A program made the translations under genes and the position numbers. Below the pieces are notes generated by a model. It did no database searches and had not been told where the DNA came from. It saw nothing but the letters and a program-made list of their open reading frames with translations. Of a stretch of DNA of 64,000 bases, positions 18,274 through 25,800 are shown piece by piece. Source of the stretch: Bdellovibrio sp. 22V. GTDB taxonomy: Bacteria; Bdellovibrionota; Bdellovibrionia; Bdellovibrionales; Bdellovibrionaceae. The DNA lies in assembly GCF_030169785.1 (NCBI RefSeq), contig NZ_CP125854.1, positions 1,240,001 through 1,304,000 on the forward strand. Reading direction: 5' to 3'. Each line of letters begins with the position of its first letter. The first letter of the stretch is position 1.

Positions 18274-18624
18274 TCAAGCAGCTTTTCGCCAGCGCATTGC
18301 TTGATCCAATTTTCCTTCTTTTGTGAGTTCAGGTCTTTTATGGTTCTTGTACTGCTTGCTGATCTTGAGAAATTGTTTTTCCAATTTTTCAGCAACGGCA
18401 TCCACCGCGCCGTAAACATCCGGCGAAAAAGCGGTCGCTTTAAAATATTTCTCTCGAGTATTCACGGAGACCTCAACACAGAACTCATTTTTCTGTTTGC
18501 TGAAATAGACGCTGCCGTACCCATCTCTAAGCAGGAACTTCGAAATCTCCGAGATCTTTTCTTCCGTATAAGTAACAAGTGAATCGGAGTGATCGAGGTG
18601 CTTAAAGGTATAGTTGAGTTTCAT
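18274..18624 (-). CDS. hpf: Ribosome hibernation promoting factor, short form
   Basis: 116 residues of the RaiA/HPF family: the beta-alpha-beta-beta-beta-alpha core with FCVEVSVNTREKYFKATAFSPDVYGAVDAVAEKLEKQ. It has a short basic tail but no long C-terminal dimerisation domain. The short form binds the 30S decoding region and helps inactivate ribosomes under starvation. A good ribosome site (AAAGGAG) lies 6 nt before the ATG. The promoter-like motif at 18662-18689 is shared with the two neighbouring genes. In many relatives hpf follows rpoN, but here it lies about 9 kb away. Hibernation would suit a non-growing attack phase. Confidence 0.93.
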   Translation of the reverse strand: MKLNYTFKHLDHSDSLVTYTEEKISEISKFLLRDGYGSVYFSKQKNEFCVEVSVNTREKYFKATAFSPDVYGAVDAVAEKLEKQFLKISKQYKNHKRPELTKEGKLDQAMRWRKAA

Positions 18625-18661: not shown

Positions 18662-18689
18662 TTATCGGTGGAGCTCGACCAAAGATGAG
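18662..18689 (-). promoter_or_regulatory. Attack-phase-type promoter motif for hpf
   Basis: Minus strand: CTCATCTTTGGTCG (18689-18676), a 7-nt spacer, then CCGATAA (18668-18662). The same two blocks with the same or 1-nt longer spacing occur before the next two genes. CCGATAA matches the -10 core of sigma28/FliA promoters (GCCGATAA). A start near 18654 would give hpf a leader of about 30 nt with its ribosome site. Confidence 0.62.
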
Positions 18690-18703
18690 CTCTATTTTGA
18701 GAC

Positions 18704-19183
18704 TCATTTGGATTTATTTTTGGTTAATTGGCAGGCCTTAAATATTTCGAGGTCTTCTCGATTTTTAAGGTACTTGCTGACGGGCGCCATGGATTCGTAC
18801 GCCCGGCGACAATCCCCTTTTTCCGCTTCAATAGTTGCGTCGAAATAAGAATCGCGAAGGGCCGCGGGCAAACGGTCGACCGGGGTCGGTGTTAATGAAC
18901 CTTCTTGAATTTGCTTTTTGTACTTTTTAATCTCGGCTTCCGCCTGCTTTTGTAATTCACGAAGATCGGCATAATGAGGCGGCAAATTCTTGGGTGCTTT
19001 TCTTGCAAGATCCGCAGCACCCTCAAAGTTTCCCGCATGAAAATAAAGTTTTGTCTTTTGATATATTCTTTCAAGCTCTTGGGTGTCCACTTTCTTTCCG
19101 GAACCAAATGGATGCGCCCAAAAACCTAAAGCCAAACCCACGCCTGCTGTGAAAACTGTCGCAAAATGATATGCCTTTTTCAT
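18704..19183 (-). CDS. Small exported protein of unknown function
   Basis: 159 residues, not recognised. The N-terminus (MKKAYHFATVFTAGVGLALGFWA) is a signal peptide or membrane anchor. The rest is helical and charged: QELERIYQKTKLYFHAGNF resembles the first helix pair of a TPR-like fold. Two late cysteines (in GDCRRAY and FKACQL) could form a disulfide in the periplasm. No Shine-Dalgarno sequence precedes the ATG. The -10-like CCGATAA ends 7 nt before it, so the message may be leaderless. Its promoter motif closely matches that of hpf, which starts 80 bp after this stop. Confidence 0.85.
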   Translation of the reverse strand: MKKAYHFATVFTAGVGLALGFWAHPFGSGKKVDTQELERIYQKTKLYFHAGNFEGAADLARKAPKNLPPHYADLRELQKQAEAEIKKYKKQIQEGSLTPTPVDRLPAALRDSYFDATIEAEKGDCRRAYESMAPVSKYLKNREDLEIFKACQLTKNKSK

Positions 19184-19190
19184 AAATTTC

Positions 19191-19219
19191 TTATCGGAAA
19201 TTTCCCGACGAAAGATGAG
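19191..19219 (-). promoter_or_regulatory. Attack-phase-type promoter motif for the 18704-19183 gene
   Basis: Minus strand: CTCATCTTTCGTCG (19219-19206), 8 nt, CCGATAA (19197-19191), 7 nt, ATG. Thirteen of the first fourteen bases equal those before hpf. The position of the -10-like block predicts transcription starting at about the ATG itself. Confidence 0.62.
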
Positions 19220-19249
19220 GCGGCCTCTGTGCCATTACAGAACAATAAG

Positions 19250-19277
19250 CTCATTTTTCTGCGATAAATTCCGATAA
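19250..19277 (+). promoter_or_regulatory. Attack-phase-type promoter motif for the fibrinogen-like gene
   Basis: Plus strand: CTCATTTTTCTGCG (19250-19263), 7 nt, CCGATAA (19271-19277), 7 nt, GTG start at 19285. It diverges from the motif at 19191-19219, so both flanking genes would be fired from one 100-bp region. Confidence 0.6.
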
Positions 19278-19284
19278 AGATTCT

Positions 19285-21516
19285 GTGAAAAGAAACACAA
19301 CGGAACGTCTCATGCTTACGGTCTTCTTTTTATTGCTGGCAGTATCGGCGGAAGCTATTAATACGGCTTCCGAAGGGTTCAAACTTCTGCACGGCACCTC
19401 GATGAGTATTCCCGTCCATAGCAGCTGTAAGCTTCTTACCAACACTCATGCAACGAAAGACTACTTTGTTCCGACTCTGAATTTAACGGGATGGACGACA
19501 TTTCTTTCTAATAAACCGGCTGCCGTGCAAACAAAAGATTGCCGCTCGTGCAAAGAGATCAAAGACAATGGCGGAGCTTGGACCGGCAGCGGCATGTACT
19601 ATATAGATCCCGATGGCGCCGGTGCCAACGTTCCCTACGTCACTTACTGTGACATGACGACGGACGGTGGTGGGTGGACGCTGGTGTGGAGTAATACTCG
19701 CGGCGGTACAAATAAGCCTTTCACTAATATGAGTTTTTACGATGTGACGACGGCGTCTCTGCCTCGTTGTTCCGTCGCAAACGGAAGCACTTCGGCCAGT
19801 GGCGCGAACTGCACATCAGTCACTAGTAATAAAGAGCAGTTCAACTATTTCGTTAGTTTGAACCAATGGAATAACATCGCCAATCAACGCAAGTATATGG
19901 ACTTCCTGTATGAGTGGCGAACGGATTATGGGAAAGCCGTAGCGCAAGCCGCGAAGCTCGCGTTGGAAAAGTTCGATCCGTTCCGGCAGTACACGATCAA
20001 TCTTTCGAATCTCTCCCATATTACGGGCACGGTGGCGCCGGGAGTTTATGCTTATCATAACAACAGAGCTATGACCTCCGTTGATACAAATGTCACTATC
20101 GCCGGCACGATTTGCGGAACGAGCTATAGCAATAGCCCTTTCTGGTATCTTTCTTGTTGGACAGGCTCTTTCTTTGGTGGCGGAGAAACCTCTGCAGGCG
20201 GTTACGTTAACGGTGCTTACTGGACGGGCACGACGAAAGCGTTTGCAACAGATGCGGATGCCTCTGCGGGAGCGGCCGGAGGTAATGGTTGGTACTTCGT
20301 GCGTGAGTACGACACGTATGCGAATTGTTACGAACATAAAAAACTTGCGGGTGCGACAACGGATGGACTCTATACGATTGATCCCGACGGACCCGGCGGC
20401 AATGCCCCTTTTCAAGCTTACTGCGACATGACGACCGATGGTGGCGGTTGGACTCGGGTCTTCAGACACAATATTTCGGGAGGATATTTTGCCGACTTTG
20501 CAGCGGCTCTGTCCTCGAATCTCGCCGATCCAACGAATGCCAAGTATTCGATTCTGAATAAGTTAGAAAATTTCCGCACGCATGGAAAATTCTTTTTCCG
20601 TCTGACGTGGCCGGGATACACACAAAGAAATATCTGGTATCAAGCGACGAACCCAACGACGGACGTGGATGTCGGCGGTTATTATCCGCACACGATTGAT
20701 CTGAACACGAACTTTTGGGGTGGACTTGAATACGGTAACGGCACGCATGGTCCGGTTAATAATAACAACTCCCTGCTGGACGGTTCCGTTGAATCAGGCA
20801 ACTGGTGGTTTGCCGTGGGATCTTTGGTTGCCTACGGCACTCCGGCGGGAATTCCTTCATCAGGAACACTCTCTTCTGGGGGCGTTTCCGAGGTGAATCT
20901 TTGGGTAAAAGAAATTGATCCTCCGCAAGTGTATGCTTCATGTAAGGCGATTTTGGATGCAGGTTACGCTTATGGAGATGGCATTTACTATATCGATACG
21001 GATGGCTCTGGAAATAACAATCCTCCTTTTCCCGTCTACTGTGACATGAGTTCTGATGGCGGAGGCTGGACGCGAATCTTCGCTCACGATATTGCAGGAG
21101 GATACTTTGCAAATGGCACCGAGGCTCGTTCGGTGAATCCGTACTATCCGACAGCATCGAAGTATTCGATTTTAAATAAGCTTGAAAGCTTCCGTCGCTC
21201 TGGAAAATTTGAATTGCGTATCAACTGGCCGGGCTACACGCCGAAAAACATCTGGACTCAAACAAGCAACTTCACTTCACAAGCTGTTGCAGGGTACACG
21301 GCCGTTTCTATCGGTTGTTCTTCGAACTATTGGGGTGGACTCGAATTTAATAGTGACACTACGTCCGTTCTATCTGACGGTTCCGTGAATCACTCGAATT
21401 GGTTCTTTGCTATCGGGTCCTACGTTGCATGGGGAACGCCAGCAGGATTGCCTGCGTGTGAAGACATGGCTGGCGCCAACGTGGGCGTTCCCAAAGTGGA
21501 ATTGTGGGTTAAGTAG
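19285..21516 (+). CDS. Exported protein with three fibrinogen-like YCDM/GGGW domains
   Basis: 743 residues. It starts at GTG 19285, which gives a good Sec signal peptide (MKRNTTERLMLTVFFLLLAVSAEA); the later ATG at 19312 would lose the basic n-region. Three copies of a fibrinogen-C-like unit follow, starting near 19545, 20329 and 20941. Each has an early Cys, Y-x-ID-x-DG, then YCDM and DGGGWT. Units 2 and 3 also share a long second half (KYSILNKLE-F, RWPGYT-like, GGLE, DGSV, GTPAG), while unit 1 has a different one. Related eukaryotic domains bind acetylated sugars. An outer-surface or secreted prey-binding role is inferred. It converges on the nucleosidase gene with an 8-bp overlap. Confidence 0.88.
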   Translation: MKRNTTERLMLTVFFLLLAVSAEAINTASEGFKLLHGTSMSIPVHSSCKLLTNTHATKDYFVPTLNLTGWTTFLSNKPAAVQTKDCRSCKEIKDNGGAWTGSGMYYIDPDGAGANVPYVTYCDMTTDGGGWTLVWSNTRGGTNKPFTNMSFYDVTTASLPRCSVANGSTSASGANCTSVTSNKEQFNYFVSLNQWNNIANQRKYMDFLYEWRTDYGKAVAQAAKLALEKFDPFRQYTINLSNLSHITGTVAPGVYAYHNNRAMTSVDTNVTIAGTICGTSYSNSPFWYLSCWTGSFFGGGETSAGGYVNGAYWTGTTKAFATDADASAGAAGGNGWYFVREYDTYANCYEHKKLAGATTDGLYTIDPDGPGGNAPFQAYCDMTTDGGGWTRVFRHNISGGYFADFAAALSSNLADPTNAKYSILNKLENFRTHGKFFFRLTWPGYTQRNIWYQATNPTTDVDVGGYYPHTIDLNTNFWGGLEYGNGTHGPVNNNNSLLDGSVESGNWWFAVGSLVAYGTPAGIPSSGTLSSGGVSEVNLWVKEIDPPQVYASCKAILDAGYAYGDGIYYIDTDGSGNNNPPFPVYCDMSSDGGGWTRIFAHDIAGGYFANGTEARSVNPYYPTASKYSILNKLESFRRSGKFELRINWPGYTPKNIWTQTSNFTSQAVAGYTAVSIGCSSNYWGGLEFNSDTTSVLSDGSVNHSNWFFAIGSYVAWGTPAGLPACEDMAGANVGVPKVELWVK

Positions 21517-22568: not shown

Positions 22569-22814
22569 GCAAAACTCCTCGCTCCCCCATCTTATTGGGA
22601 AAATCCAGAGTCAGTAAAGCAACTCCGGCCCCGCGATGAATAGGCGAAGTCTTACTCAGGACGTTTATCCCAGAACTGGACTTTTCACTGGCAACATTAC
22701 TGGGGCGTCAGGGCAATTACCAATCAAGCCTGGGTAGAATTTTCGGATCTCTAAACGACACATTATATATGAGAGAAAATTACTAATTATTGTTAAAACC
22801 TGATGAAAATCACG

Positions 22815-22821
22815 CCGATAA
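22815..22821 (+). promoter_or_regulatory. CCGATAA -10-like element before the fibre gene
   Basis: GCCGATAA (22814-22821), an exact match to the FliA -10 consensus, ends 7 nt before the ATG at 22829. That is the same distance as in the two genes at 18704-19183 and 19285-21516. The CTCATYTTT block is absent. A partial FliA -35 match, TAAAACCT, lies 12 nt upstream of the octamer. By position it predicts a leaderless mRNA. Confidence 0.42.
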
Positions 22822-22828
22822 GTTACTT

Positions 22829-25800
22829 ATGAAACTTACCGGAACGTTGCTTCTCATTTTAATACTTCCTCTGCTGTCTTTCGCCGGCCCGAATTCTTTG
22901 ACCTATCAGGGACGTATTTTAAAAGTCGATGGAACTCCCCTCGAGTACAATAACGTCAGTTTCAGTTTTGAAGTCACAAGTCCCGATGGTCTTTGCGTTC
23001 TCTATCGCGAACAAGTGAATGGCATTAACATGACCAACTCCGGAGGCGTTTTCGATGTCGCTATCGGCAGCGGCTCTAAGAGTTATCCTGCCGCCGCGGG
23101 ATTCAAACTGCTCGATTCGTTTGTGAATGCAGGAACGCTCAACTGTGATGGCGGTTCGACTTTTACTCCCGGCTTTGATGATATTCGCAAGCTGCGCGTG
23201 CAGTTTCATGATGGTTCCGGCTGGAAAGTGATTTCTCCCGATTCAGAAATTCGTTCAGTGCCTTACGCTGGTTATTCTTACTCGGCAACAAAACTGGGAA
23301 CGAACAGCGCTTCGGACTTTTTGCTGAAAGCGGGAATTCCCACTTGTGGCGCCGGGACATTTCTTTCCTGGAATGGCTCGGCGTTAAGCTGTGCTGCCGT
23401 AGCGGGAGCCAGTGGCGGTACAGTTACGGATGTGACCTCTGCAAATTCTTACCTGACGATTATTAATGGCACGTCAACTCCGCAACTGACTTTGAATGTC
23501 GGTTCAACCGCGAACACTGTTGCTGCGGGTGATGATCCCCGTCTTTCAGATGCGAGAACTCCAACGGGAACTGCGGGTGGTGATCTTAGCAACACGTACC
23601 CAAATCCGAAGGTCGCGAAAATTCAAGGTGTCACCGTTTCGACAACGGCTCCGAATAGTGGCGAGTATTTTAAATACAACGGTTCGCAATGGATTCCCAC
23701 GGTTATCACGACGTCTGACGTTTCGGGACTAGCGGCGGCTTTAAGCGGTTATGTTACGCAGTCTTATTTCAGTAATGCCGTTGCAAGTGCGAACTGTGCC
23801 CAACATCAAACGATGTATTGGGAAGCAGCGACGAATAGCTTTAAGTGTATGGCCATTAATGTCAGTGTCGCTGGAGACGTTAGCGGGACGATTGGTGCCG
23901 TGAGTGTCGATAAAATCAAAGGCGTGGCTCTTGATTTTTCAACGGCTCCGACAAGTGGGCAGACATTGAAATTTAACGGCACGAGTTGGGCCCCCGCGAA
24001 CGACAACAATGCGGGCGGAACCATCACCGCTTTGACGGGAGACGTTTCCGCAAGCGGATCAGGTTCTGTGGCGGCGACAGTGAATTCTGTCGGCGGATCT
24101 TCGGCAGCAAATATTCATAATGCCGAGCTTGCCGCGAATGCCGCAACCGATGCGAATACAGTTTCGACAATTGTTAAAAGAGATGCTTCCGGAAACTTCG
24201 CCGCAGGCACTGCGACGTTAAGCAAAGTTATTTTGAAAGACTCCGGTTCGAATACGGTCACTTTGCAAGCTCCTAGTACCGTCACAACAAATTACGTTTT
24301 GAAATTTCCGGCGGCTCAAGGCGGCGCGAATCAAATGCTTCTGAACGACGGCGCAGGAAATCTTTCTTGGACAAGCTTGTCTTCCGTGGGCGTGACCAGT
24401 GTGGCCGTGACATCTCCGATTACGAATTCGGGAACAGCGTCTGCACCTAATATCGGAATTCAACAAGCCAACGGTTCACAGGCAGGTTATCTATCCAGTG
24501 CGGATTGGACCTCTTTCAACAATAAACTGGGCACGAGTTTGAACTCGGGAAATATCTGGATCGGTAACGGCTCGAATGTCGCAACGGCAGTTGTTCCGGC
24601 GGGTGACGTGACGGTTTCAAACACAGGCGCGACACTTGTTGGAAAAATTCAAGGTACCGGCGTTGTCAGCACGACTCCGACGGCAACAAATAATCTTTTT
24701 AAATACAATGGGACAAATTGGGCGCCTGGATTCATTGGTGTTGCGGATATTCGTTCGACGGCAGCAGGCAATGCGCAGTTTTTCCCGACAACGTGTACGG
24801 CGGCGCAAACCCTGAATTGGGAATCGGCGACGGATAAATATATTTGCACGAATATCGCGATTGGTGATTCACAAATCACTTATGCGGCGAAAGCGGCGAA
24901 AACATTTTTGGCGGCCCCCACAGCGGGAGGCGTTCCCACATTTAGAACAATTGCCTCTTCAGACCTTCCGACAACAGGAGCAGACGGCGCTTACATCAAT
25001 GGTGGCAACTCTTTCGGTGCGAATGCCAGTATTGGCCTGAATGATTCTTACGGATTGGATCTTGAGACTGCGGGAACCCCGCGGGTTTCTATTTCAAACG
25101 CCGGTAAAGTCGGCGTGAACGCAACAAGTCCCTCTTCTCAATTTCAAGTACATGGCCCTGCCAGCGTGCAAACCGATTTTGCAATTGCGACGTTTCAAGA
25201 TTCTTCTAACAACGGGATGAGTTTTGGTGTCGACACCACGAATGGTTGGAGCTGGATGTACTCGCGCACAGCGGGTGTCTCCCCTCGCCCGATTGCTTTC
25301 TTTGCACATAACTCGAATCAAATTCCTGACTTGATCATCGAATCTAACGGTCAAGTGGGTATCGGTACAAAAACGCCGCTGGCGCCATTGAATGTGGTGG
25401 GCAATGCCAATGGCGGAATCGCGATTCAAAAAAGTTCTGATGATAATGGCGGCGCCACCATCGCTTTTGCAAAAGCGCGCGGCACAAATGCAGCACGCAC
25501 GGCCGTGCAAACTGGCGACAGATTGATGGGCCTTTATGGCGCTGGCGCTTACGATGCCACTAATTACTCGACGAATTCCGGCGCGATTCAAATTCTTGCC
25601 GCCGAAAACTTTACGGCGACTGCGAACGGAACCGCGATTGATTTCGGAACAACGCCCCTGGGATCGACGGCTCGGCAAACGAGAATGACGATCACGGCCG
25701 ACGGATATATGGGTGTGGGTACCGCGCTTCCCGATGCCCGACTGCACGTCGCTGGAACAAATTGGGCCAGCAGTTCCATCTATGCGACTCGTTTCGAAAA

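Follow-up and report, generated by a model that had tools for sequence, protein, structure and literature searches.

The window analyzed here is a 64,000-nucleotide stretch of the genome of Bdellovibrio sp. 22V, and three of its neighbouring genes are considered below. The first, hpf (18274..18624, minus strand), encodes a 116-aa HPF identified through Ribosomal_S30AE and TIGR00741; it is of the short type, with no C-terminal dimerisation domain matched. The second (18704..19183, minus strand) encodes a 159-aa exported or membrane-anchored helical protein, whose fold search returned weak TPR-like matches, none with E <0.001. The third (19285..21516, plus strand) starts with GTG and encodes a fibrinogen-like secreted protein with a Fibrinogen_C match. 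A sequence-only reading had proposed that these genes share a promoter motif of two blocks, CTCATYTTT extended by five more similar bases and CCGATAA, with 21, 22 and 21 nt from the start of the first block to the second. Exact matches were found before hpf (CTCATCTTTGGTCGAGCTCCACCGATAA, 18662-18689, minus strand), the exported-protein gene (CTCATCTTTCGTCGGGAAATTTCCGATAA, 19191-19219, minus strand) and the fibrinogen-like gene (CTCATTTTTCTGCGATAAATTCCGATAA, 19250-19277, plus strand), with all positions and distances as claimed. The additional similar bases were evident at hpf and the exported-protein gene, both of which carry NGTC and then a fixed G, and only weakly at the fibrinogen-like gene. 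As the latter lacks RGTC, the full first block does not hold up as a single motif common to all three.

The two-block motif gave no match in 100 dinucleotide shuffles. Across the whole 3.6 Mb genome, TCATNTTT-N11..13-CCGATAA matched four times, three of these being the sites described above, and its reversed control did not match at all. Taken alone these chance figures are circular, because the motif was derived from the same sites. Given only four matches in 3.6 Mb, strict CTCATYTTT was rejected as the genome-wide FliA -35. CCGATAA by itself was not enriched in the window (10 occurrences against 7 expected), and the informative feature is therefore the pair of blocks. The pair YTNA-CCGATAA occurred four times in the window, each time upstream of a gene, against a shuffle mean of 0.05; three of the four have a start codon 6-8 nt downstream. 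The fourth of these FliA-type promoters, TTAA...CCGATAA (22793..22821, plus strand), lies upstream of a large SLTYQGRIL-type surface protein, whose ATG at 22829 follows CCGATAA by 7 nt. With this site, and with 32 occurrences of CCGATAA-N7-ATG in the genome (control 4), the idea of the trio as a special group is not supported.

Comparison among related genomes provided a test free of that circularity at two of the genes. TTTRGTC-N8/9-CCGAT, with the RGTC element in the spacer, precedes hpf in all 24 genomes with an hpf match (23 of the genus and one of the nearest genus); CTCATCTTT is present in 22 of the 23 genus genomes and CTCAGCTTT in the other one. When the hpf upstream regions were aligned on CCGATAA, CTCATCTTT, GTC and the G at -6 were conserved at 91-100%, with positions -8, -7 and -5 to -1 more variable (<=74%). 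In the window the hpf -10 element CCGATAA, of which CCGAT is invariant across the 24 genomes, occupies 18662..18668 and the -35 plus extended element CTCATCTTTGGTCGAG occupies 18674..18689 (both minus strand). The distance from CCGATAA to the hpf start codon ranges from 37 to 159 nt across the genomes; in the window it is 37 nt and includes a Shine-Dalgarno sequence. Distant hpf orthologues from several families also have CCGAT 29-86 nt upstream of the start. Further conserved stretches lie beyond the hpf promoter on the same strand, namely TCTCAAAATA (18693..18702, columns -34 to -25) and the heptamer ATTAACC (18722..18728, columns -60 to -54). These stretches, ATTAACC (-60) and TCTCAWWATA (-34), together spanning 18693-18728, are kept with or without the exported-protein gene, and in the window genome the heptamer falls within the 3'-terminal part of that gene. 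The exported-protein gene was found in 13 of the hpf-comparison genomes and has the block, including RGTC in the spacer, upstream in 12 of them. Its window elements are CTCATCTTTCGTCGGG (-35 plus extended element, 19204..19219) and CCGATAA (19191..19197), both on the minus strand; the window genome has an extra 1 nt in the block spacing (22), and the ATG stands exactly 7 nt after CCGATAA. Conservation before hpf and the exported-protein gene is independent proof of their sites. The fibrinogen-like gene carries the -35 block CTCATTTTT, without RGTC, at 19250..19258 and CCGATAA at 19271..19277 (both plus strand), with its GTG exactly 7 nt on. Its one orthologue in the loci compared (G020, 74% identity) has CTCATTTTT and CCGATAA followed by ATG at the same 7-nt distance, which removed the suspicion of a mis-called start at GTG 19285.

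Several features assign these promoters to the FliA type, as had been claimed. CCGATAA is the sigma28 -10 core at all three sites, the spacing is that of sigma28 promoters with the same -21 peak in 55 independent sites, and the genome encodes one FliA above cut-off (281.8 bits versus 189.6). The best NCBIfam bit score of this FliA protein is to a WhiG model (297, below the WhiG cut-off of 343) and not to the FliA model. Compared with -35 elements of the TAAAG/TTAAG type at N15-N16, T-32 and A-30 are kept while G-28 is replaced by C or T; all three positions matter in the E. coli sigma28 promoter aer, at which transcription starts 6 bp after the -10 octamer (PMC2859248). The E. coli sigma28 pattern TAAAGTTT-N11-GCCGATAA, including the CRP-activated aer and trg, is alike in register, -10, T-32, A-30 and TTT, but has the G-28 that is absent here, and the extra element of our sites lies in the spacer rather than upstream; aer and trg nonetheless provide a precedent for an activator at a sigma28 promoter (PMC2859248). 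Flagellin and TAD-operon promoters of BALOs are FliA-driven in E. coli and share the sigma factor family, the lineage and a CCGA -10 with the present sites (PMC5430801). The flagellin promoters in this set of genomes, which are the most certain targets of FliA, differ in having TAAAG or similar rather than CTCA and a start codon that is mostly farther off. FliA control of the attack phase is already known, with a published consensus of TTAAG-N16-CCGATA (PMC3627812). The attack-phase FliA promoters described there for B. bacteriovorus HD100 are alike in -10 (CCGATA), in the approximately 21 nt between block starts, in their surface-protein targets and in the FliA encoded, whereas their -35 is TTAAG in place of CTCA plus, in two of three spacers, RGTCNNG; hpf is not mentioned in the passages covered (PMC3627812).

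To avoid circularity, the -35 was surveyed with a search for CCGATAA-N7-ATG, which is blind to the -35, with the reversed pattern as control. This arrangement was enriched tenfold in 15 genus genomes (340 versus 33); eight order relatives outside the genus gave only 63 versus 27. Sixty of these sites were sampled from another three genomes, and 55 of them open into long frames. This proportion overstates the true fraction, since some cases that were obviously short or on the coding strand had been passed over in the sampling, although the choice ignored the -35. Many of these frames encode signal peptides, lipoproteins and SLTYQGRIL-type surface proteins. The consensus of the 55 sites is YTNA, with C or T at -21 in 97%, T at -20 in 69%, A at -18 in 56% and C commonest at -19. 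Because sites picked blind show YTNA at -21, CTCA appears to be a usual form of the -35 in this lineage; the published TTAAG consensus is another variant of it. TTAAG-N16-CCGATA occurs 17 times in this genome against one control match, nine of the 17 having a start codon 7-12 nt on. Transcription starting 6-7 nt after the -10, with ATG or GTG 7 nt on, would give the exported-protein and fibrinogen-like mRNAs leaders of 0-3 nt with no space for a Shine-Dalgarno sequence, and these two mRNAs are thus probably leaderless. The tenfold enrichment likewise predicts numerous surface-protein and lipoprotein mRNAs that are leaderless and of sigma28 type (in the window, 19197-19183, 19271-19285 and 22815-22829).

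The earlier reading had posed a lineage-specific version of the -35 and an extra activator site as alternatives, and the evidence suggests both: the degenerate YTNA represents the former at all three genes, and the conserved RGTCNNG may represent the latter at two of them, the fibrinogen-like gene lacking it. RGTC was rare among the leaderless FliA-type sites, standing at the matching place in one of 55, which raises the possibility that hpf-type promoters are read differently. The pattern CTTTRGTCNNG-N4..6-CCGAT was present in 47 of 60 genomes, and its control matched only a handful of times. Its commonest further target is a 130-aa protein without Pfam or NCBIfam match (example L180:1501-1890 and orthologues), whose predicted fold matches PilZ domains and for which a PDB sequence search gave no match. 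CTTAACTTTGGTCNNG precedes the -10 of this PilZ-fold gene in the genus and, across the order, in several other families, and the extended element is absent in two order-level orthologues (G044, G049). The sites assembled for the extended element are biased, being mostly pattern-found, while the protein-anchored PilZ-fold and hpf sets are unbiased. FliA-type promoters containing CTTTRGTC also stand before fimbrial-chaperone-like and FliL-like genes of some relatives (L137, L138, L146, L161), though L048, the FliL-like gene in the genome that the window comes from, has no CTTTRGTC promoter of this kind.

It is possible, though we doubt it, that all of these are plain FliA promoters, with RGTCNNG conserved through close kinship or a sigma28 -35 preference and no extra factor involved. 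TCATCTTT does stand in the exact register of the E. coli pattern and matches TAAAGTTT at 5 of 8 bases, TTT included (PMC2859248). However, hpf retains RGTC..G in other genera (G024, G025, G034, G035, G036) where the surrounding bases vary, and the PilZ-fold gene retains it across several families with varying neighbours. Other FliA-type promoters are moreover mostly without RGTC, so an additional factor is its likeliest reason, and RGTC may be a candidate extra recognition site. Control by another sigma factor is very unlikely. An RpoH-like sigma is encoded about 2 kb from fliA in this genome (L088, L090; G000:C1:936176-938799), and CTTAAC...CCGA also resembles the sigma32 layout. Yet the groES promoters of the genus read CTTGACT...CATATT, quite unlike CTCAT...CCGATAA, which disfavours the RpoH-like sigma, and CCGATAA with its 7-nt start geometry agrees with the FliA-type set. 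That the sites are instead a common RNA element or coding remnant is extremely improbable: small GTC/GAC hairpins can be drawn for single hpf copies, and in some genomes an upstream start codon shares its reading frame with the site of the exported-protein gene, but these readings were rejected on stop codons (R = A gives TAG in the would-be frame), spacing (spacers shift by 1 nt, and at two genes just 7 nt separate the site from the start codon) and variability (variable bases not complementary across genomes), with no Rfam match.

We return to sigma28 (FliA)-type promoters as an attack-phase switch for the three genes, with an extra element and a leaderless pair, and consider this account as a whole highly probable. 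The hpf, exported-protein and fibrinogen-like genes would very likely be switched on in free-swimming, attack-phase cells. The -10 recognized by FliA would be CCGATAA and the -35 the degenerate YTNA, which is CTCA here, with the transcription start expected 6-7 nt downstream of CCGATAA. In the hpf and exported-protein promoters TTTRGTCNNG occupies the upstream half of the spacer and probably sets these promoters apart, either by recruiting another DNA-binding factor or through an atypical contact of the FliA holoenzyme. The hpf promoter has more conserved sequence upstream. The exported-protein and fibrinogen-like mRNAs would be leaderless, while hpf mRNA would keep a leader with its Shine-Dalgarno sequence. 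A literature search, with most subscription journals outside its range, found no paper that names hpf among FliA targets or describes the extended element and, in titles and abstracts, none on leaderless mRNA in Bdellovibrio.

If correct, this account would place ribosome hibernation under the hunting-phase sigma factor across the whole genus and probably in further taxa. It would also mean leaderless mRNA in a Gram-negative predator, open to an exact and cheap test, and would offer RGTCNNG as a sequence with which a candidate sigma28 co-regulator could be found. Leaderless mRNAs are a class known elsewhere as translatable by undissociated 70S ribosomes. A more speculative extension, which we judge unlikely as it stands, is a coupled hunting programme in which the extended sigma28 promoter and a co-activator would raise HPF and the PilZ-fold protein (which may be a c-di-GMP receptor), and a large part of the sigma28 surface set, made from leaderless mRNAs, would stay translatable despite shelved ribosomes. 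Were this so, the predator could still make its prey-contact proteins while its ribosomes are shelved.
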